Shown piece after piece: positions 29,159-39,279 of a DNA stretch of 64,000 bases. Origin of the DNA: Candidatus Sumerlaea chitinivorans (GTDB taxonomy: Bacteria > Sumerlaeota > Sumerlaeia > Sumerlaeales > Sumerlaeaceae); assembly GCA_003290465.1 (NCBI GenBank), contig CP030759.1, positions 2,988,572 through 3,052,571 on the forward strand, in the 5' to 3' direction. The position numbers were made by a program, and so were the translations under genes. The notes below the pieces were generated by a model. The model was not told where the DNA came from, made no database searches, and saw only the letters and a program-made list of their open reading frames with translations. Position 1 is the stretch's first letter; every line of letters begins with the position of its first letter.

Positions 29159-30769
29159 CTACGGGAGATCGGGCTGGATGTTTGCCTTGGCCATCGCTTC
29201 AAGGAAACGCGCCTTGACGATCTCGTAACCGGCAGCGTTCAGGTGAAGACCGTCGCGCGACAGCTCTTCGCGCAGGAGGCCGTCGGTTCCCACGCAATCG
29301 CTGTATGTGTCCACATAATAAATCGCAGGGTCTTGGCCATTGGCGAGCTTAGCGACCTCGGCGTTAAATTTGGGGATAAGGGGTGAGATGTACGCGTAGG
29401 CGTCGCGTGTGGGCGTGCACGAGACGATAAAAATCTTAGCGTCTGGTACTTCCTTGCAGATGCGCGCGACCACCTCTGCGTAGGTGGCCACAATTTCAGA
29501 AATCTTCGGTGAGCCGGTCCGCGCCGTGGCGGAGAGGTCATTCGTGCCGTTCAAAATGAACACGGCGCGCGGTCGAAGTGCGAAAACAGAACATTCGAGT
29601 CGATGGAGGATGCCGCGGTCGCCAATTCCAATCCGGTCACCGGAAATGCCACGGTTCACCATCACGTAGTTTGGAAAAAGCTGACGTTCTTTGAGCCCTT
29701 CAATGCTTGAGCTGCCCAGAAGTACAATTGGCCGACTCGTCGTGCTGGCCTTACGCCATTTGGCGTTCTCGGCCTCGAATGCAAGGCAGCGCTTCGAATA
29801 ATGCCGGTGCAAATTGTCAGTGAAGACGGCGCCGACCGCAGATGGTGAGGCAGACCCAGAACGTAGTTCATTGAAGCGGTCGAGGTGGAATCGCAAATGA
29901 GCACTGATGCGCCAATCCCAATACCGCCACGTGTGGCCCCCCTCGAATTCGGCATAAGTGTGCGCGATCCCGCGATTGGCGAGGCGCTCGTGGACCAACC
30001 GGTTATCGGCGACCGCGCCCGTGGCATCGCTTGTCCCCACGTCAAAGTAGAGGGCGATGCCTGCAGTCGTGAAGCGGTCCACGAGGTCGGCGACACTGTG
30101 GGCACGCCAGCGCGCGTCGTTTTGTTCATTCAAGGGCCCGAACCGATCGTCGAGATGCCATTTGCCCGGGTGGTTGGTGAGGCAAAGTATTCCGCTCATT
30201 GCGGATGCGCTACAGAAGAGTTCTGGATGTTTCGCTGCAAGCGAGAGAGCGCCGTGGCCTCCCATGCTGAGGCCACAAATTCCGCGCGCTTCCCGCTTGG
30301 GCAACGCGGGAAAACGCGCTTCCACGTCTGCGATGAGTTCTTGCGTCAGGAAAGTCTCGTAATTGTTGTTTGGTGGACTGTCCACGTACCAACCGAACTC
30401 TCCGCCGTCAGGGCACACGATGAGCAAAGGGCGGCCAGCCGCATAATCCAGAAGCGCCGTCTTTTCTGGCCAATCGCGATAAGATCCATAGGCGCCATGC
30501 AGTAGGTAGAGCACTGGATAGCGGGTGTCGGGCTGGCGTTCCGCTGGCATGATAACCGTGTAGGTGGTCTCGCGCCCAAGCGCGCGGCTCCACATGGTCA
30601 CGGTGGTGGACACACTTTTCTTGCTCAGTGATTGCGTCGTGACCGCGGTACTTTGCGCGCTGACATCGAACGCCGTCGCACTCAGACCTAAGAGGAGCAC
30701 CAAGCTCAGAATTGCAGAAAGATTGCGGAGAGCAAATGACTTCACGGGGTCCGTCCATCCTTTTCTCAT
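29159..30769 (-). CDS. Secreted two-domain hydrolase: esterase D-like plus SGNH hydrolase
   Basis: The product is 536 residues; the ATG at 30769 has GAGAGG eight bases upstream. A signal peptide (AILSLVLLLGLSATAFDVSA) leads to an alpha/beta-hydrolase of the esterase D/feruloyl esterase group with Ser168 in GLSMGG and His279 in EGGHTWRYW. From about 345 a second, SGNH/GDSL domain begins: VLLGSSSIEG (Ser353 or 354), block III NGTND (408-411) and the DGLHLN dyad (Asp506, His509). SGNH domains of this type deacetylate or de-esterify carbohydrates, so the pair may remove acyl and acetyl or feruloyl groups from plant or microbial polysaccharide. It is convergent with the GH57 gene. Confidence 0.88.
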   Translation of the reverse strand: MRKGWTDPVKSFALRNLSAILSLVLLLGLSATAFDVSAQSTAVTTQSLSKKSVSTTVTMWSRALGRETTYTVIMPAERQPDTRYPVLYLLHGAYGSYRDWPEKTALLDYAAGRPLLIVCPDGGEFGWYVDSPPNNNYETFLTQELIADVEARFPALPKREARGICGLSMGGHGALSLAAKHPELFCSASAMSGILCLTNHPGKWHLDDRFGPLNEQNDARWRAHSVADLVDRFTTAGIALYFDVGTSDATGAVADNRLVHERLANRGIAHTYAEFEGGHTWRYWDWRISAHLRFHLDRFNELRSGSASPSAVGAVFTDNLHRHYSKRCLAFEAENAKWRKASTTSRPIVLLGSSSIEGLKERQLFPNYVMVNRGISGDRIGIGDRGILHRLECSVFALRPRAVFILNGTNDLSATARTGSPKISEIVATYAEVVARICKEVPDAKIFIVSCTPTRDAYAYISPLIPKFNAEVAKLANGQDPAIYYVDTYSDCVGTDGLLREELSRDGLHLNAAGYEIVKARFLEAMAKANIQPDLP

Positions 30770-30962
30770 GAGACTTGCCTCTCTGAGCAATGAGGCGAAG
30801 CGAAGTCCTTACGCAAGGAAGAAAGAGTCTAAGGCAAGACTATGCGAACCATTCCTTCGGGGCTGGAAAATTGCATAAGCTGCTTTGTGGGGGCAGCGAA
30901 GGCATTGTAGAAAATTCATAGCCCTTCCATCCCGAACTATGAGTCGAAGAAACACCAGAAAA

Positions 30963-30998
30963 TTCATGTTGCAGAAATATATTCGCTATAACGAATAT
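30963..30998 (+). promoter_or_regulatory. Probable ars promoter and ArsR operator
   Basis: ATATTCG (30979-30985) and CGAATAT (30992-30998) form a perfect seven-base inverted repeat with six-base spacer, and GAATATGC then recurs in tandem. A possible -35 TTCATG (30963-30968) and -10 TATAAC (30987-30992), 18 bases apart, place the -10 inside the palindrome, the usual position for ArsR repression. The palindrome is clear; the promoter hexamers are a weak match. Confidence 0.5.
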
Positions 30999-31004
30999 GC
31001 GAAT

Positions 31005-31418
31005 ATGCTTGAAGGCATGCAGAATCTCTTTGGCGCATTGAGCCATCCGACGCGCCTCCGCGTGCTGAACTTGCTGGCGCGGGGAGGACGGGAGTTCTGC
31101 GTATGCGAACTGGTCGAAATCTTGAAGGTTCCGCAAAGCACTCTATCGCGTCTACTCATGCCCTTACGCCAGAGTGGAATTGTTCAGGCTGAGCGCGCGG
31201 GTCAGTGGGTGCACTACAAGATCACGCCGCTCTATCGTTCGTATATTCGGATGCTCCTTGAGAAGTGTCCGACCGAGAAATTTCAGCTTGAATCGGATCT
31301 CGAGCGAGCAACTCGTTTGCAGGCGCGGAATCGCGCCGCTGCGTCGTACTGCACAGCGAAGCGTCGCCCGAGCAAGAAGCCCGTGCGTCAGCAGCGACAG
31401 AAGAGGTCAAACGTATGA
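31005..31418 (+). CDS. arsR: ArsR-family arsenical-responsive repressor
   Basis: Winged-helix dimer that releases the ars promoter on binding As(III). The core GALSHPTRLRVLNLLARGG is followed by EFCVCELVEIL, the CVC trivalent-arsenic site in the recognition-helix region, then VPQSTLSRLLMPLRQSGIV as the DNA-binding helix. The C terminus is a basic, disordered-looking tail. The start is uncertain: ATGs at 30966, 31005 and 31017 are in frame, but the operator overlaps the first, so I chose 31005. The stop overlaps arsC by four bases (ATGA), showing an operon with arsC and acr3. Confidence 0.9.
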   Translation: MLEGMQNLFGALSHPTRLRVLNLLARGGREFCVCELVEILKVPQSTLSRLLMPLRQSGIVQAERAGQWVHYKITPLYRSYIRMLLEKCPTEKFQLESDLERATRLQARNRAAASYCTAKRRPSKKPVRQQRQKRSNV

Positions 31419-31831
31419 TTCCCAGCCCCCAGAAACATCGAACGCGAATTCTATTCGTTTGCGTTGAAAACTCCAATCGTTCCCAGATGGCCGAGGCTTT
31501 TGCCCGCCATTATGGAGGGGATCAGGTGGAAGTCTTCAGTGCGGGGTCGCGTCCCTCCGGGCGGGTCAACCCGCGGGCGATCGAAGCGATGCGTGAGCGG
31601 GGAATTGAGCTTTCCGCGCATGTGTCCAAGTCCCTCCACGATGTTCCTCAGTGGGAATGGGACTATGTGATTACCATGGGCTGCGGCGATGAATGTCCGT
31701 GGGTAAAGGCCAAACACCGGGAGGATTGGAAGCTCCCTGACCCACGGGACCTTCCGGCTCAAGAGTTTGCGGTGGTGCGGGACGAAATCGAACGGCGGGT
31801 CCTCGAGCTCCTTCAAAGGATCAAACCCTAA
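31415..31831 (+). CDS. arsC: Arsenate reductase, thioredoxin-coupled (LMW phosphatase fold)
   Basis: Reduces arsenate to arsenite in the cytoplasm. The 138-residue protein starts with the P-loop [15 protein letters not shown], so Cys16 and Arg22 form the CX5R anion site. LPDP supplies the general acid aspartate (109). Cys90 and Cys94 (MGCGDECPW) fit the redox relay of the thioredoxin-linked class. Translation is coupled to arsR by an ATGA overlap, and acr3 follows 34 bases later. Confidence 0.93.
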
Positions 31832-31865
31832 TTTTAGTTCATCCCACTTTTCGGAGAAAAAGAAG

Positions 31866-32930
31866 ATGGCTACTTGTCGTGAAGCGAAGAAGTTATCGTT
31901 CTTGGACCGTTACCTCACGCTATGGATCTTTCTGGCGATGATTGCGGGAATCGTGTTGGGGTTGGTGGCACCGCAAGTATCTCACGCGATTACCCAGCTC
32001 AGCATCGGCACAACAAGCATTCCGATTGCGATTGGCCTGATTCTGATGATGTATCCGCCGCTCGCCAAAGTGCGCTATCACCAAATGGGCGACGTATTTC
32101 GGGATAAGAAAGTCGTTCTACTTGCCCTGTTCTTCAACTGGATTGTGGGTCCCGTGATCATGTTTGTCTTGGCGATCTTGTTCTTGCGGGATCGGCCCGA
32201 GTACATGACCGGTGTCATTCTGGTGGGGCTCGCGCGCTGTATCGCCATGGTTCTTGTATGGAACGACCTTGCTGGCGGTAACCGCGAATACATGGCGGGC
32301 CTTGTTGCGTTCAATGCTGTGTTTCAGGTCGTAACGTATTCCGTCTATGCTTGGTTCTTTCTGAGTTTCCTGTTGCCCCTCGTCGGCATGAAGGGAGTGG
32401 GGGTGGACGTCTCGATTTGGGAGATCGCCAAAAGTGTGTTAATCTACTTGGGAATTCCATTTTTCGCTGGTGTGCTCTCGCGTCTGATCCTGCCACGCCT
32501 CCAAGGCGAAGAGTGGTATGAGAAAGTTTTTATCCCGCGCATTAGCCCCATCACGCTTGTTGCGCTGCTGTTCACGATCGTCGTCATGTTCTCGCTCAAG
32601 GGCGACGTCATTGTGAGCCTGCCGCTCGATGTCCTCCGGGTAGCGATTCCGCTCGTTTGCTATTTCGTGATACTGTTTGTCTTGGCCTTCGTGATGGCGA
32701 AGCGAGCCGGGGCCGACTATTCGCGATGCGCGACGATTGCGTTTAGCTCCGCGAGCAATGACTTCGAACTTGCGATCGCCGTAGCGGTCGCCGTTTTCGG
32801 AATCACGTCTGGTCAAGCGTTCGCGACCGTGATAGGACCGCTCGTCGAAGTGCCGGTGCTCATTAGCCTTGTGAATCTTGCTCGATGGTGGCAAAAGCGC
32901 TGGTTCCCCGAAGAAGTTGCCGCAGAGTAG
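31866..32930 (+). CDS. acr3: Arsenite efflux permease, ACR3 family
   Basis: Exports As(III) produced by ArsC. The 354-residue protein has about ten membrane helices, and [19 protein letters not shown] contains Cys125, the membrane cysteine needed for transport in characterised ACR3 proteins. The ATG at 31866 has GGAG upstream; earlier in-frame codons overlap arsC. It ends a compact arsR-arsC-acr3 operon. No arsA or arsD is present, as expected for ACR3 systems. Confidence 0.95.
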
Positions 32931-33117: not shown

Positions 33118-35547
33118 ATGAAATCTTGCGCTTCCCATAATGCGGCGGGAGCGGCTGCCGCTCATGTTTCGACCAGTGTGGAGAGTCGTCGTCGGCGGGT
33201 CTTGCAATCGTTTTGGTGGTGGCTGCTGCGCCATTGGCCATGGCTTGCAGCCAACCCTGAGCGAGCTCGGTTTGTATACCGCCTTCATTATCGTCTGTTT
33301 CGAGAGTGGTACGAGGCCGGTAGGCCTTGCAATGTTGCGGAAGGCGCCGCCCAATCAGCGGACGTCGCTCCTGTCGCAGATGAGGCAATGCGCCAAGCGA
33401 TGCGGGCAGCCTTGCTGCAGACTTCCGATCCGCTTGATGCACGTGAGTTCAACGAGGCCATTGCCGCGGTAGAACGCGCGCGGGGTTTGGGCGCCTGTGC
33501 TGCTGTGCCCAGTGCATGGACGATTGAGGTGGGGCCGAACATGGCCCGATGGGAGTGGGCTGAACCTCTATGGCGCTTTGCCCGGCAGGTGCGAGTGGTC
33601 GCTCATGACGGTGCCAAAATTGCTCCCGCCTGTGATCTCTTGGAGGAACTCAGTCGGGCGATCACGGCAAGACTGATTTTACGCATGCCGTTGGAATGCG
33701 TAAGTGCTGAGGCATTGCGTCTTGCCGCGAAAGCCAACGTCGCAGCTCTCGAGTGTGTGATTGGAGCCGGTGCCATCGCTCAGCTCAAAGGTGCCGGCCG
33801 AGATGGCTGGCAAGAGACCTTGAAGCGGTTTCGGGCCGATGCAAAATCTGCGGTCCAGTTTGATGTGGAGTTGTCACGGAGATCTCTCGCAATTCTTAAG
33901 GAGGTCGGTGAATTTGCCAAGTCCGTAGGCGCGGAGAGAATCCATCTGCATTACGGCCGCGCAGCGCTTCCCGCGCAGGTCCCAGACTCCCTGTTTTTTG
34001 AGTCGGATTTTGGTCGCGCCGCGATTTCCCAGTTCTCGCAGCAGGCTCACACGTGGGGGATCGAGGTTGTCACACCGTTTGGGCCGCCAAGCCTCGAGCC
34101 ATACTCGGTTGTCCATCTTGACGCCGAGGGTATGGCATTCTCGTGCGGAGGATTCATCTGTTCCCATGGGGTCATCGGCTCCTTAGAAGAATTTCTTCAG
34201 TGGTGGGATTCTCCTGCTTGGTGCAAATTCCGCTATAGGGTCAGCAGAGGAGAGTTCGTACCGGAATGCCAGCTGTGTGGGGTAGTGGGAACCGCCGATA
34301 AGGAGAGCGTTCCGTATCATCTCACTGCGTACGACGGGGGCGAACCGTCGCAGGAATATCTCGACACGGTGCGGGTGGAGCTGGACCGCATTGGCGAGGA
34401 TCAATTGGCTCGAGATCGAAACGCACGCATCCGCCACTATGAGCACAGCCGCGGGTTCACGCGCCTCGCGTCGTATCCCCATCGGATGTACGTGGAAGTC
34501 ACTGACGAATGCAATCTGCGCTGCCCGATGTGCACCCAGACGATTCTTCAGGGAGAGCGTCGGCGAATCCCGCTCGAATTGGTCCGCAAGCTTACGCCTC
34601 TCATGCGCTATATGGATCTCATTCACTTCACAGGCTGTGGGGAGACGTTTTTGCATCCGCAGTTGCTCGACATGTTGCGGCTTGTGCCCCACCACCTATG
34701 CGCGGTCCGGATCATCACGAATGGCCTCTTGCTGGATGAGCACGTGTGCCGCGAGCTGATAAACTTACAACTCAAGGATTTGTGGGTCTCGCTTGATGGG
34801 ACAGACGCCGCGACGTTCGAAAAGATTCGCGGCTCGAAGCTTTTCCGCAAAGTTCTTGAGAATGTTCGAACGCTGACGCGGCTGAAGCACGAGCTCGGCA
34901 GCAACCGCCCGGAGGTCGCGCTGAATTTCGTGGCGCAACGCTCGAATATCGAGCAATTGCCTGACTTCATTCGCTTGGCAAAAGAGCTGGGGGCGGACGC
35001 CGTGAATGTGGGATTTTTGCAGGTCTACACCCGCAACCTGCTGACTGAAAGCCTCTATTTCTACCAAGATCTTGCGGACCACTTTTTGAAAGAAGCGCGC
35101 CGAGCAGCAGAAGAAGTTGGGATTCGCCTGTATTTGCCGGGGCTCTTCGCGGAGGCGCATGCGCGCAAAGCGAGCCTTACGGAATCCGGCGCCTCCGACG
35201 AGGCGAGTTCGCGCAAGTGCGTTGAACCTTATGGCTTTGTGCTCGTGCGTGCGGAAGGGCAGCTCGGGCCGTGTTGCGTCAATGACGCTCGCCTTGGCTC
35301 GCTGAGCGAGGCCAATTTTGTGGAACTCTGGAATGGGCCTGCCTACCGAGACTTCCGTCGCCGCGTCAGCACTCCCGAGCAGGATTTCGACTGTGAGCAC
35401 TGCATGCTGGAAGGCTATAAGGACATCACCGAATTTGAGCACCACGTGAAGCTCTTCGATGAACACTATCGCCCAGAACAAGTGGACTACCATCAGCTCG
35501 AGGCAGAGGTGCGGGCCAAGATTGCTGAAGGGGTTGTTGCCGGATGA
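33118..35547 (+). CDS. Tandem radical SAM/SPASM protein with a degenerate first module
   Basis: The 809-residue product contains two SPASM-type modules. Module 2 (about 450-775) is complete: CNLRCPMC gives the SAM cluster ligands Cys465, Cys469 and Cys472, and Cys701, 719, 720, 759 and 762 form the SPASM auxiliary-cluster region. Module 1 (about 135-390) has no CX3CX2C motif but ends in a SPASM-like region with Cys343, 348, 369, 384 and 387 that aligns with module 2: both show AEG, then Cys, GSL, an aromatic WDSPAW/WNGPAY and FRxRVS before a final CxxC. The first 70 residues are basic and tryptophan-rich. The stop overlaps the next start by ATGA. SPASM enzymes modify peptides or cofactors; no precursor peptide is visible here. 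The substrate is unknown. Confidence 0.85.
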   Translation: MKSCASHNAAGAAAAHVSTSVESRRRRVLQSFWWWLLRHWPWLAANPERARFVYRLHYRLFREWYEAGRPCNVAEGAAQSADVAPVADEAMRQAMRAALLQTSDPLDAREFNEAIAAVERARGLGACAAVPSAWTIEVGPNMARWEWAEPLWRFARQVRVVAHDGAKIAPACDLLEELSRAITARLILRMPLECVSAEALRLAAKANVAALECVIGAGAIAQLKGAGRDGWQETLKRFRADAKSAVQFDVELSRRSLAILKEVGEFAKSVGAERIHLHYGRAALPAQVPDSLFFESDFGRAAISQFSQQAHTWGIEVVTPFGPPSLEPYSVVHLDAEGMAFSCGGFICSHGVIGSLEEFLQWWDSPAWCKFRYRVSRGEFVPECQLCGVVGTADKESVPYHLTAYDGGEPSQEYLDTVRVELDRIGEDQLARDRNARIRHYEHSRGFTRLASYPHRMYVEVTDECNLRCPMCTQTILQGERRRIPLELVRKLTPLMRYMDLIHFTGCGETFLHPQLLDMLRLVPHHLCAVRIITNGLLLDEHVCRELINLQLKDLWVSLDGTDAATFEKIRGSKLFRKVLENVRTLTRLKHELGSNRPEVALNFVAQRSNIEQLPDFIRLAKELGADAVNVGFLQVYTRNLLTESLYFYQDLADHFLKEARRAAEEVGIRLYLPGLFAEAHARKASLTESGASDEASSRKCVEPYGFVLVRAEGQLGPCCVNDARLGSLSEANFVELWNGPAYRDFRRRVSTPEQDFDCEHCMLEGYKDITEFEHHVKLFDEHYRPEQVDYHQLEAEVRAKIAEGVVAG

Positions 35548-36521
35548 GACAACCCCGACGTCATTGGACACATAGGTTTTTTGGCCCGTTGTACGGCTAT
35601 CTTTATCAGTATCACTTATTGCCCGCCGACCAGACGCGTTGCGAAGTTCAATTTGCCAGCGCCCTTTGCGGACTCAAGCGCAAGTGTGTGTTGGATCTCG
35701 CTGCAGGGTTTGGACGCCACGCTCGGCTACTCGCGCGGTCGAATCAGGTTTGGGCGCTCGACCAAAACCGTGCCTACTTGGCGATGGCGCGCGAAAAGCT
35801 TTCTCCTCGGACTCTGAAAAATTTGCGTACCATCCAAGCAGATATGCGGGCGCTCCCTTTTCGGGATCAGGTGTTTGACGCAGTCCTTTTGCTTTTCAAC
35901 AGCTTTGGTTATTTTACCTCTGCACCTCCTCTCGAGCGGGAATTGCGTCAACGGGAGCTCTGGCGGCTTCCGGCGGTCTTTTACGAGCGGGGCCTCGTGC
36001 CAGAGGATTTTGGTGTGTGGCGCGAGGAAGGCGGTTCGACTCCGCCCCAGCAGAAGCGGGCAGAAGAGTCTGCGGGTGGGGTCGGCGCCGTCCTTCAGGG
36101 GCAAGGTGACGTAACTACGACGTCAACCACACAAGACGAGAATTTTCTCATCCTTGAAGAAGTTGCGCGCGTCTTGCGGTCAGAGGGAGACTTCCTTCTT
36201 GAGGTTCCCAACCCTCGTCCTCTATTGGCCGCGGTCGCGGAAGCACCTCGCCGGTGGTTGGTCACGAACGATTTTGAAATTGAGGAAGAATATACGTACG
36301 ACCGCACCCGCGCCTTGCTATCAAACGTCACGCGTTTCAGTGTGCCGGGGCGTACAGAGTGGGCGGACTACCACATCCGCTTATACTCCCGACGTGAGCT
36401 TGAGGTGGCCTTGCGCGGAGCTGGATTCAAAATCTGTGGGGTCTACGGCTCCTACGCCGGCGAGCGCTACGACGCTTCTCGCTCGCCGACGATCTTGCTC
36501 CACGCACGGCGCAAGCGTTGA
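35544..36521 (+). CDS. Class I SAM-dependent methyltransferase with a long insertion
   Basis: The 325-residue protein has motif I VLDLAAGFGRHARLLA (49-64), an acidic motif II in VWALDQNRAYL and FDAVLLLFNSFGYF (111-124) for motif IV. Between that strand and FLILEEVARVLRSEGDFLLE (201-220) sits an extra segment of about 70 residues rich in Glu, Arg, Thr and Gly and likely disordered. The closing half is beta-rich with YHIRLYSRRELEVALRGAGF. It is translationally coupled to the radical SAM gene (ATGA overlap), so the two probably act on the same substrate. The acceptor is not predictable. Confidence 0.87.
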   Translation: MRQPRRHWTHRFFGPLYGYLYQYHLLPADQTRCEVQFASALCGLKRKCVLDLAAGFGRHARLLARSNQVWALDQNRAYLAMAREKLSPRTLKNLRTIQADMRALPFRDQVFDAVLLLFNSFGYFTSAPPLERELRQRELWRLPAVFYERGLVPEDFGVWREEGGSTPPQQKRAEESAGGVGAVLQGQGDVTTTSTTQDENFLILEEVARVLRSEGDFLLEVPNPRPLLAAVAEAPRRWLVTNDFEIEEEYTYDRTRALLSNVTRFSVPGRTEWADYHIRLYSRRELEVALRGAGFKICGVYGSYAGERYDASRSPTILLHARRKR

Positions 36522-36572
36522 GAAATCACAATTGACGAGCATCGTTTACCCAAGCAGGAATGAGGGTTGCGT

Positions 36573-37529
36573 ATGTTGACTCTGGGAATAGATCTGGGTG
36601 GCACCGATACGAAGTACGGCCTTGTGGATTTTTCAGGGCGGATTGTGCGAGAGGCTGTACACCCCACCGAGGCACACCTTGGCTTTGAGAAGGTGATGGA
36701 GCTTGTTGCCATCCATGCCCGCGAGCTCATCGGCACGGAGAGGGTGACTGCGGTAGGCATGGGTGTGCCGGGCCCGATGAGCAGTCGCACGGGAGTGGTG
36801 TTCGAGGCTCCCAATTTGCCGGGGTGGAACCATGTGCCCGTGCGCGATGTCCTCGAGCGAGCCCTTGGTTTGCCGGTCGTCGTGCACAATGATGCGAATG
36901 CAGCTGCCTATGGGGAATTCTGGGCAGGTGCAGGCCGTGGATGCGAAAACATGATTCTTTTCTCCTTGGGAACGGGCGTGGGCGGCGGAATCATTTTGCG
37001 GGGCGAGCTCTACACCGGGCCCGACGACACCGCGGGCGAACTGGGGCACATGTGCATCAACTTTGAAGGCCCGCCCTGCAATTGTGGGAGCCGGGGTTGT
37101 TTGGAAGCCTACGCAAGCGCGACTGCGATTCGGCGCGTCGTGCGTGAAGCCATTGCGAGCGGGCGGTTGACGCGGATCCGGATCCCCGAAGGCAAGGAGA
37201 ATTCATTCGGCGCGAAAATTGTCTACGAGGCGGCACTTGAGGGAGATCCCCTCGCGATCGAGGTGCTTCAAAATGTTGGAATCGCCTTGGGGATTGCCGC
37301 TGGAAGTATCATCAACATCTTTAACCCTGAGCGAATTGTCTATAGCGGGGCGCTGACGGGGGCCGGCGAGTTTATTTTTGGTCCGCTTCGCAAATATGCG
37401 ACCTCCCACGCGTTTCGGCGACCTGCAGAGCGCGTTGAGATTTTGGTCGCTAAATTGGGTTCAAAGGCCGGCATGGTTGGTGCCGCAGGATTAGCCATGA
37501 AAACGCGACGCGAAGCGAACAATCCTTGA
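36573..37529 (+). CDS. ROK-family sugar kinase (glucokinase-like)
   Basis: The 318-residue product has the ATP motif LGIDLGGTDTKYG at its start, GVPGPMSSRTG and the ROK zinc motif CNCGSRGCLEAYAS. HNDANAAAYGEFWAGAGRG contains the catalytic aspartate. Zinc-binding ROK kinases phosphorylate glucose, fructose, N-acetylglucosamine or N-acetylmannosamine. The ATG at 36573 has GAGGG six bases upstream, and a TTG at 36567 is possible. It follows the methyltransferase by 51 bases in the same direction. No helix-turn-helix is present, so it is an enzyme rather than a ROK repressor. Confidence 0.92.
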   Translation: MLTLGIDLGGTDTKYGLVDFSGRIVREAVHPTEAHLGFEKVMELVAIHARELIGTERVTAVGMGVPGPMSSRTGVVFEAPNLPGWNHVPVRDVLERALGLPVVVHNDANAAAYGEFWAGAGRGCENMILFSLGTGVGGGIILRGELYTGPDDTAGELGHMCINFEGPPCNCGSRGCLEAYASATAIRRVVREAIASGRLTRIRIPEGKENSFGAKIVYEAALEGDPLAIEVLQNVGIALGIAAGSIINIFNPERIVYSGALTGAGEFIFGPLRKYATSHAFRRPAERVEILVAKLGSKAGMVGAAGLAMKTRREANNP

Positions 37530-37638
37530 AAATGGTCGCAAGAGTTCCCCATAAACTCCGAAAGAAAAGACCGAAAGAGGGTTTACGATCTCTCAGTCCC
37601 ACACAAAGTGACTCGGAGTGGGAGGAGAAGAAGGTCCA

Positions 37639-39279
37639 ATGAGCCATAGGCCACCACTGCGATTCAAAATTGCGACTGAGCCAGAAGAATTTGAGCAGAT
37701 TCATCGGCTCAACTATCGAACTTTTGTCGAGGAGATCCCCCAACACCGCCCGAATGAGGACGGTCGGCTCGTCGATCGTTTCCATGAGGAGAACACCTAC
37801 ATTATCTGTCTGTGCGGGACTCGAGTTGTTGGCATGCTCGCGGTGAGAGACCGCCGTCCCTTCTCATTGGACCTAAAATTGCCGAATCTCGACTCCTATC
37901 TGCCGCCGGCGAAGTCCATTTGCGAGATTCGCTTATTGGCCGTGGAACCTGAGTTCCGAAGTGGGCAGGTGTTTCGCGGGCTTGCCGTAGAATTGGCGCG
38001 CTACGCTTTGAGCAAAGGCTACGACTTAGGAATCATTTCCGGAACCACGCGCCAGCTCAAACTTTACCGCCATGTTGGCTTCATTCCGTTTGGGCCCCTT
38101 GTGGGGGAACCCGGGGCACAGTTTCAGCCGATGTACATGACGCGAAAGGAGTTTGAGCGGATTACTTTGGAAGTGTTGGGTAAGGAAGAGATTTTGAGTG
38201 CGGCACGCCACAATGGCCACGTTGCAAACTTTTTGCCGGGTCCTGTGAACATTCGGGAAGAAGTGCGCGAGGCGTTTTCTGAGCCCCCGGTCTCGCATCG
38301 GGGCGAAGCGTTCATCGAAGAGTTTCAAGAGCTTAAGGCGCAGCTTTGCCGCATCGTCAATGCCCGAAATGTCGAGATTTTTGTTGGTTCCGGAACTCTG
38401 GCGAACGACGTCATTGGTGCCCAACTGACGCTGCTGGATAAGCCGGGGCTGATCCTTGCGAACGGTGAGTTTGGATTTCGGTTAGCCGATGCCGCCAAAC
38501 GGTTTAGGCTGAATTTTAAGGTTTTTGAAGCCCCTTATGGCCAACCGTTTGATTATCGCGAACTTGAGAAAGAAGTGGAGGCGCGAGCCTCTGAGCTTGG
38601 GTGGTTGTGGGGCGTGCACTGCGAGACATCGACAGGCGTGCTCAATGATTTGGGGCGACTGAAGCGGCTCGGAGCCCACCACGGACTGAAACTTTGTATG
38701 GATTGCATTTCCTCGATCGGGGTGGTGCCTGTGGATGTGGAAGGGCTCTATCTGGCCTCGGGAGTCAGTGGCAAGGGATTGGGATCCTACCCGGGCCTAT
38801 CCATGGTCTTCTACAATCATGAAGTTCAGCCGGCCCATCAGTTGCCGCGGTATTTGGATCTCGGCTACTATGCCGCCAAGGACGGAATTCCGTTCACGCA
38901 TTCCTCAAACTTAGTGCGGGCGCTCCGTGCGGCGCTTCACCATTTTGAGAGCAATCCGCCTTATGAAAAGCGCGCGAGTTTATCCGCATGGGCGCGAGAG
39001 CGGCTTCGCCAAATGGGCTTTCAGGTTCTGGCGTCGGAAGAGTGCGCGGCGCCTGCAGTCATCACCATCGTTTTGCCTCCGGCGATTCGATCTTATGATG
39101 TCGGGAGCCAGCTTGAGCGCGCGGGGTTCCTCGTAAGCTACATGAGCGAGTACCTGCTGGCTCGTAACTGGATCCAAATTTGCATGATGGGCGAGTGCAC
39201 AAAAGAGAACCTCGAAGCGCTGCTGGACCGTATTGCACTCGAGTGCGGTGTCGCGGAGGCGCATTCACCTGTCGTGTAA
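37639..39279 (+). CDS. GNAT-like N-acyltransferase fused to a class V aminotransferase
   Basis: The 546-residue product has two enzymes. Residues 1-175 are GNAT-like; ICEIRLLAVEPEFR (94-107) and the lead-in FEQIHRLNYRTFVEEIPQH resemble the FeeM/LuxI-type N-acyl synthases more than ordinary GNATs. From about 195 a PLP-dependent class V aminotransferase follows: LPGPVNI, HCETSTG (328-334), Asp355 in CMDCISSIG and the likely PLP lysine Lys379 in SGVSGKGLGS. Its closest relatives appear to be alanine-glyoxylate or 2-aminoethylphosphonate aminotransferases. One polypeptide could transaminate and then acylate an amino product. GAAGG precedes the ATG. No acyl-carrier protein is nearby. Domains firm, product unknown. 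Confidence 0.85.
   Translation: MSHRPPLRFKIATEPEEFEQIHRLNYRTFVEEIPQHRPNEDGRLVDRFHEENTYIICLCGTRVVGMLAVRDRRPFSLDLKLPNLDSYLPPAKSICEIRLLAVEPEFRSGQVFRGLAVELARYALSKGYDLGIISGTTRQLKLYRHVGFIPFGPLVGEPGAQFQPMYMTRKEFERITLEVLGKEEILSAARHNGHVANFLPGPVNIREEVREAFSEPPVSHRGEAFIEEFQELKAQLCRIVNARNVEIFVGSGTLANDVIGAQLTLLDKPGLILANGEFGFRLADAAKRFRLNFKVFEAPYGQPFDYRELEKEVEARASELGWLWGVHCETSTGVLNDLGRLKRLGAHHGLKLCMDCISSIGVVPVDVEGLYLASGVSGKGLGSYPGLSMVFYNHEVQPAHQLPRYLDLGYYAAKDGIPFTHSSNLVRALRAALHHFESNPPYEKRASLSAWARERLRQMGFQVLASEECAAPAVITIVLPPAIRSYDVGSQLERAGFLVSYMSEYLLARNWIQICMMGECTKENLEALLDRIALECGVAEAHSPVV

Follow-up and report, generated by a model that had tools for sequence, protein, structure and literature searches.

Why does a single protein carry two radical SAM-like modules when only one of them possesses a SAM-cluster motif, and what might the other one do? 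The question is raised by a locus of Candidatus Sumerlaea chitinivorans, the genome of which is a single contig of 3.29 Mb; the window, meaning the whole stretch of DNA that was analyzed, comprises 64,000 nucleotides of this contig, from 2,988,572 to 3,052,571. A sequence-only reading had described two open reading frames here, and both are present, at 33118-35547 (809 residues) and 35544-36521 (325 residues), overlapping by ATGA. It took the first for a duplicated enzyme with a non-catalytic copy and the second for a coupled methyltransferase. The sections below address the origin of the non-catalytic copy, its spread and constraint, its surroundings, and its likely role.

Architecture of the tandem protein

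The features of the first open reading frame are as follows:

33118..35547, + strand: tandem protein, 809 aa, in which an intact radical SAM/twitch module comes after a pseudo-radical-SAM/twitch module
33370..34317, + strand: module 1, residues ~85-400, a degenerate radical SAM barrel and degenerate twitch without CX3CX2C (from hhalign, shuffle control, AlphaFold and Foldseek)
34090..34284, + strand: twitch region of module 1
34090-34092, + strand: S325, at the position of the first twitch ligand of module 1
34144-34146, 34267-34269 and 34276-34278, + strand: C343, C384 and C387, retained predicted ligands of module 1
34330..34464, + strand: helical lead-in to module 2 (residues 405-449), which recurs where module 1 begins (EFNEAIAAVERARGL / DRNARIRHYEHSRGF)
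34483..35142, + strand: radical SAM core of module 2, residues 456-675 (PF04055, E 3.6e-11)
34510..34533, + strand: SAM-cluster motif CX3CX2C of module 2, C465-C469-C472
35218..35406, + strand: twitch/SPASM-like region of module 2, residues 701-763, with C701, C719, C720, C759 and C762

Pfam matches fall in the second half of the protein only (Radical_SAM at 459-589, SPASM at 701-762). The PF04055 match scores 43.9 bits against a gathering score of 29.5, which places module 2 in the radical SAM superfamily; at E 0.01, neither Pfam nor NCBIfam has a model that matches residues 1-451. The CX3CX2C motif occurs once, at residues 465-472, and its cysteines C465, C469 and C472 lie in the second unit as had been read. 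No copy lies upstream of this site in the window protein, nor in either of the two full-length homologues, from Candidatus Sumerlaeaceae bacterium SKW119 (genome G007) and Candidatus Sumerlaeota bacterium QZM1.54 (G001), both of the same family as the window's genome; in all three proteins the corresponding loop of the first unit is deleted.

Both units had been described as SPASM-type. The two modules stand, and their cluster domains are of the one-cluster twitch type rather than full SPASM. Module 2 matches PF13186 (SPASM) at 44.6 bits against a cut-off of 21.5; despite this match, the seven-cysteine SPASM motif, CX9-15GX4C...CX2CX5CX3C...C (PMC6231123), is absent, the last cysteine of the protein being C762. 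Instead, module 2 shows C701-x12-G714-x4-C719 and C759-x2-C762 with no later cysteine, corresponding to the four cysteines of a twitch, that is, one before the hairpin, one after the hairpin, and a pair after the second helix. The window protein has nine cysteines in its module 1, of which only C343, C384 and C387, three of the four predicted ligand positions, are invariant. Its ligand register reads S325, C343, C384 and C387 in the window, four cysteines in G007, and Tyr, Cys, Cys, Cys in G001. The statement that the first unit keeps its SPASM cysteines is therefore accurate for three of the four twitch ligands, the first position being Cys in G007 only. SkfB and MoaA have twitch clusters held by three cysteines with one site left open (PMC6231123), which makes it conceivable that module 1 binds a cluster; if an iron site is still assembled there, it may be a single site-differentiated auxiliary cluster.

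Module 1 as a degenerate copy of module 2

Profile comparison of module 1 (residues 85-405, built from the window, G007 and G001 sequences) with module 2 (residues 406-790, four sequences) gave an hhalign probability of 99.1 (P 7.6e-19) over 314 aligned columns, collinear along the full length of the modules and including the helical lead-in, the latter half of the barrel with its SLFF/SLYF motif, and the twitch region. The score of 134.9 compares with at most 24.8 among 150 column-shuffled versions, and the CX3CX2C loop is exactly where module 1 shows a gap of 21 residues. When module 1 sequences were left out of a radical SAM model and those of module 2 kept in, the model recovered module 1 of the window in three collinear pieces that omit the SAM-cluster half of the barrel. 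Ordinary radical SAM/SPASM proteins of distant genomes are also among the hits of the module 1 profile.

The motifs quoted earlier for the first unit (AEG, GSL, WDSPAW and FRYRVS) are present in the window and mostly specific to it: both homologues keep only the W-D, the second W and the R, besides the three cysteines. Across the three proteins, the W-D...W...R set, SLFF and the three ligand cysteines are invariant.

Structure prediction of the first half had been proposed as a check, and the predicted fold is not unrelated to a radical SAM barrel. In the AlphaFold model of the full protein, residues 131-330 form alternating strands and helices in the same order as module 2 with a pLDDT of ~80; the input comprised three sequences, and both twitch regions are poorly resolved at low model confidence. 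When module 1 is modeled alone, its best PDB match by Foldseek is the radical SAM enzyme viperin (E 3.9e-5, TM ~0.45), with further radical SAM enzymes and additional TIM barrels ranking next. The model supports a barrel, and its specific assignment to radical SAM rests on the sequence profile.

A tree built from the modules, their single-module relatives and further radical SAM proteins of Sumerlaeota groups module 1 with module 2 and the homologue from G004 (support 96/87). The AU test weakly rejects positions of module 1 among the other radical SAM proteins or among the other single-module relatives (p-AU 0.044 and 0.046, respectively), and does not reject a duplication that postdates the split from G004 (p-AU 0.315); because the branches of module 1 are long, these placements call for caution. 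The tree thus favors an in-family duplication. By homology and predicted fold, module 1 belongs to the radical SAM superfamily by descent, and in none of the three homologues does it carry the CX3CX2C of an active member. The profile alignment, shuffle control and tree support the earlier proposal that a duplication took place and that the first copy then lost its SAM-cluster site, and the two homologues likewise lack the cluster cysteines there. On sequence evidence, then, the 809-residue protein is a tandem duplicate whose module 1 has lost the motif.

Distribution and constraint

To establish how far the same two-module order extends, 386 genomes were searched with the module 1 profile. The tandem form was found in three of 40 Sumerlaeota genomes (two genera), namely the window's genome and those of the two full-length homologues, and in none of the 346 other genomes. 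Seven further Sumerlaeota have relatives of module 2 only (G004, G012, G015, G016, G020, G022 and G039). Those of G004, G016 and G022 comprise a single module each by HMM scan, the one in G004 being 55% identical to module 2, and the reading frames of G015, G020 and G039 measure 425-452 residues. An HMM scan of long radical SAM frames in twelve further loci of relatives detected at most one module per frame.

The two modules diverge at very different rates. Between species, barrel identity is 25-31% for module 1 vs 68-77% for module 2, with barrel pN of 0.51-0.56 vs 0.16-0.23; module 1 evolves two to three times faster. The pN/pS values are 0.6-0.72 for module 1 and 0.17-0.31 for module 2, and as synonymous differences are near saturation, the true ratio is lower than computed. 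Constraint on module 1 is therefore much weaker than on module 2, though probably not absent; the frame remains open in all three species despite the low barrel identity.

Gene neighborhood and substrate

The genes following the tandem protein, and one feature within them, are:

35544..36521, + strand: class I SAM-dependent methyltransferase, 325 aa, the start of which overlaps the previous stop by ATGA (PF13649, E 4e-15)
35919..36134, + strand: methyltransferase insert, residues ~126-197, with a conserved W[KR]LPxVFYER core
36567..37529, + strand: ROK-family sugar kinase, the next gene, conserved throughout the family (PF00480, E 4.8e-70)
37618..39279, + strand: FeeM-like GNAT acyltransferase fused to a class V aminotransferase (PhnW/AepZ-like)

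The 70-residue insertion noted in the methyltransferase is real and not particular to this gene: it is common to six of the seven family orthologues, being absent in G004, with the core R-x-[VL]-W-[KR]-L-P-x-V-F-Y-E-R. In all three tandem genomes, the radical SAM and methyltransferase genes overlap or closely adjoin. The proposed coupling of the methyltransferase to the radical SAM protein is weakened by the conservation of the methyltransferase in nearly the whole family, including four genomes without a tandem protein (G002, G003, G004 and G005), where it lies beside other genes. The methyltransferase therefore probably serves a function of its own, apart from the tandem protein, and its coupling to that protein is specific to the lineage. 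In G005 and G002, the methyltransferase is preceded by a proline/alanine-rich protein of 182-187 residues (L060:8587-9135, - strand, and L062:7155-7718, + strand, respectively) with a signal-like start, probably exported, which has a conserved C-terminal VIILNSRKxKxExSLxERQ and no Pfam match.

Downstream, the window and G001 share the order ROK kinase, GNAT-aminotransferase, SpoIID-like and HAD-like genes. The GNAT-aminotransferase fusion is full length in five of 40 Sumerlaeota (G000, G001, G007, G016 and G022), within the family only in the three tandem genomes. All five also possess the radical SAM family, in G016 and G022 as single-module relatives, and this co-occurrence is a weak hint of association. 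The G007 homologue (L105, G007:C256:1137-2765) contains one in-frame TGA, reflecting either a sequencing error or a pseudogene. Just upstream of the tandem gene lies an arsenic-resistance-like set (30885-32930, + strand) comprising an ArsR-type regulator, a low-molecular-weight phosphatase/arsenate reductase-like protein and an SBF-family transporter, the first gene pair of which overlaps. The window also encodes a putative esterase fused to a GDSL lipase/acylhydrolase domain (29159-30790, - strand). Promoter and terminator scans remained at chance level.

As the sequence-only reading had noted, no precursor peptide is visible. The flanking DNA of the three tandem genomes holds no conserved precursor peptide or small open reading frame, the only significant matches lying inside the arsenate reductase-like gene; the conserved neighboring precursor gene by which a RiPP maturase would be recognized is thus lacking from these neighborhoods. 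The single-module relatives lie beside or near glycosyltransferases (G039 and G022), a capsule-synthesis protein (G016) and a UbiA prenyltransferase (G020), and G012 has two relatives, one of them near a polysaccharide flippase. These polysaccharide-type neighbors, together with the lack of a conserved small frame, favor a sugar or surface glycan, a lipid or another small molecule over a peptide as the likely substrate.

Role of the N-terminal module

We favor, at a rough probability of 55%, a reading in which catalysis belongs to module 2, with module 1 as its fused pseudo-enzyme partner. Module 2 would be a working twitch-type radical SAM enzyme that performs the radical chemistry. Module 1, an old in-family duplicate that has lost its SAM-binding loop, would now serve as a non-catalytic partner, most likely helping, through a presumed contact, to place substrate or a partner protein next to the active site of module 2, and its three invariant cysteines may hold the auxiliary cluster considered above. 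Sequence comparison shows the duplication, the motif loss, the three retained cysteines, a frame kept in three species and restriction to one lineage. Counted against a partner role are the fast divergence of module 1, which would also fit a loosely constrained remnant, and the first twitch ligand, which is not kept in two of the three species. A narrower version, in which module 1 is a dedicated in-cis partner whose three-cysteine cluster binds substrate or relays electrons, and the protein an undescribed single-chain pair of pseudo-enzyme and enzyme, we regard as unlikely.

The main rival to the partner role is that module 1 is a functionless, loosely constrained remnant, kept since it is hard to lose without harming module 2. 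The weak constraint (pN/pS 0.6-0.72 vs 0.17-0.31) agrees with this, and the close single-module homologue in G004 indicates that module 1 is dispensable in the wider family. A remnant would, however, hardly be expected to keep its frame open in three species at ~28% identity, to leave the three ligand cysteines, the W-D...W...R set and SLFF invariant, or to retain its order of secondary structure in the AlphaFold model, and with synonymous differences near saturation its true pN/pS lies below the computed value; we judge this explanation somewhat unlikely. That module 1 acts mainly as an electron relay, in which a putative three-cysteine cluster would donate electrons to, or accept them from, the auxiliary or SAM cluster of module 2, would account for the invariance of C343, C384 and C387, and has a parallel in PapB, where intermolecular electron transfer is reported to be obligatory, with an auxiliary cluster as its likely route (PMC10470005). 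Two of the species, however, retain three ligands only, and we judge a primary relay function quite unlikely. Least probable is that the tandem protein is a peptide (RiPP) maturase with a precursor encoded elsewhere or missed. Many characterized SPASM/twitch enzymes do act on peptides (PMC6231123), and the methyltransferase shows a weak similarity (51 bits vs a cut-off of 175) to a RiPP methyltransferase of the daptide type, but the three tandem neighborhoods share no small frame and the single-module relatives are surrounded by polysaccharide genes. A fused, non-catalytic partner that assists module 2 therefore remains our preferred reading.

Comparison with known systems

Module 2 resembles the twitch enzymes BtrN, SkfB and MoaA in its CX3CX2C and its one-cluster C-x12-G-x4-C...CX2C twitch. 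Those enzymes, unlike the tandem protein, have one radical SAM module, and we know of none of this type with an N-terminal degenerate copy. The best NCBIfam matches of module 2 are the radical SAM/SPASM maturases TIGR04311 and TIGR04317, at 153 and 146 bits, far below their cut-offs of 400 and 380 bits. NF033640 (N_Twi_rSAM) likewise has a twitch N-terminal to a radical SAM core, and there is a weak match (E 0.027) between positions 8-70 of its profile and module 1 residues 328-388. It is, however, a 398-position model with no barrel before the twitch, and was rejected for the N-terminal part at 84.2 bits against a cut-off of 170, residues 1-451 being unmatched at 0.01.

Pseudo-rSAM proteins are separate proteins proposed to act beside an active radical SAM enzyme, with function not assigned experimentally (PMC10352776). 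Module 1 is similar to TIGR04150 / IPR026418 of the GG-Bacteroidales system in being radical SAM-like without a working SAM-cluster motif (PMC10352776). TIGR04150 is encoded by a separate gene beside a precursor peptide, whereas here the module is part of a tandem fusion for which no precursor was found, and neither module 1 nor any other protein of the window's genome matches the TIGR04150 model. Elsewhere in this genome, a protein matching TIGR04347 'pseudo_SAM_Halo' (408.8 bits, cut-off 525) is not a pseudo-rSAM, as its CX3CX2C is present. FO synthase (CofG-CofH / FbiC) also has two radical SAM domains (PMC11917521), but both are active, generating two separate 5'-deoxyadenosyl radicals, with no loss of a SAM cluster.

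Known systems thus comprise separate pseudo-rSAM partners and two-domain enzymes with both domains active. The fusion of a dead and an active module would be new: we found no published precedent for a fused pseudo-rSAM/rSAM in the open-licence literature on tandem, inactive or pseudo radical SAM proteins. The tandem protein illustrates one way in which an auxiliary-cluster domain may come to precede a radical SAM core. Overall, the fused dead twin offers a simple system for asking what pseudo-rSAM helpers do, and the natural single-module homologue in G004 allows direct comparison with and without the dead module.
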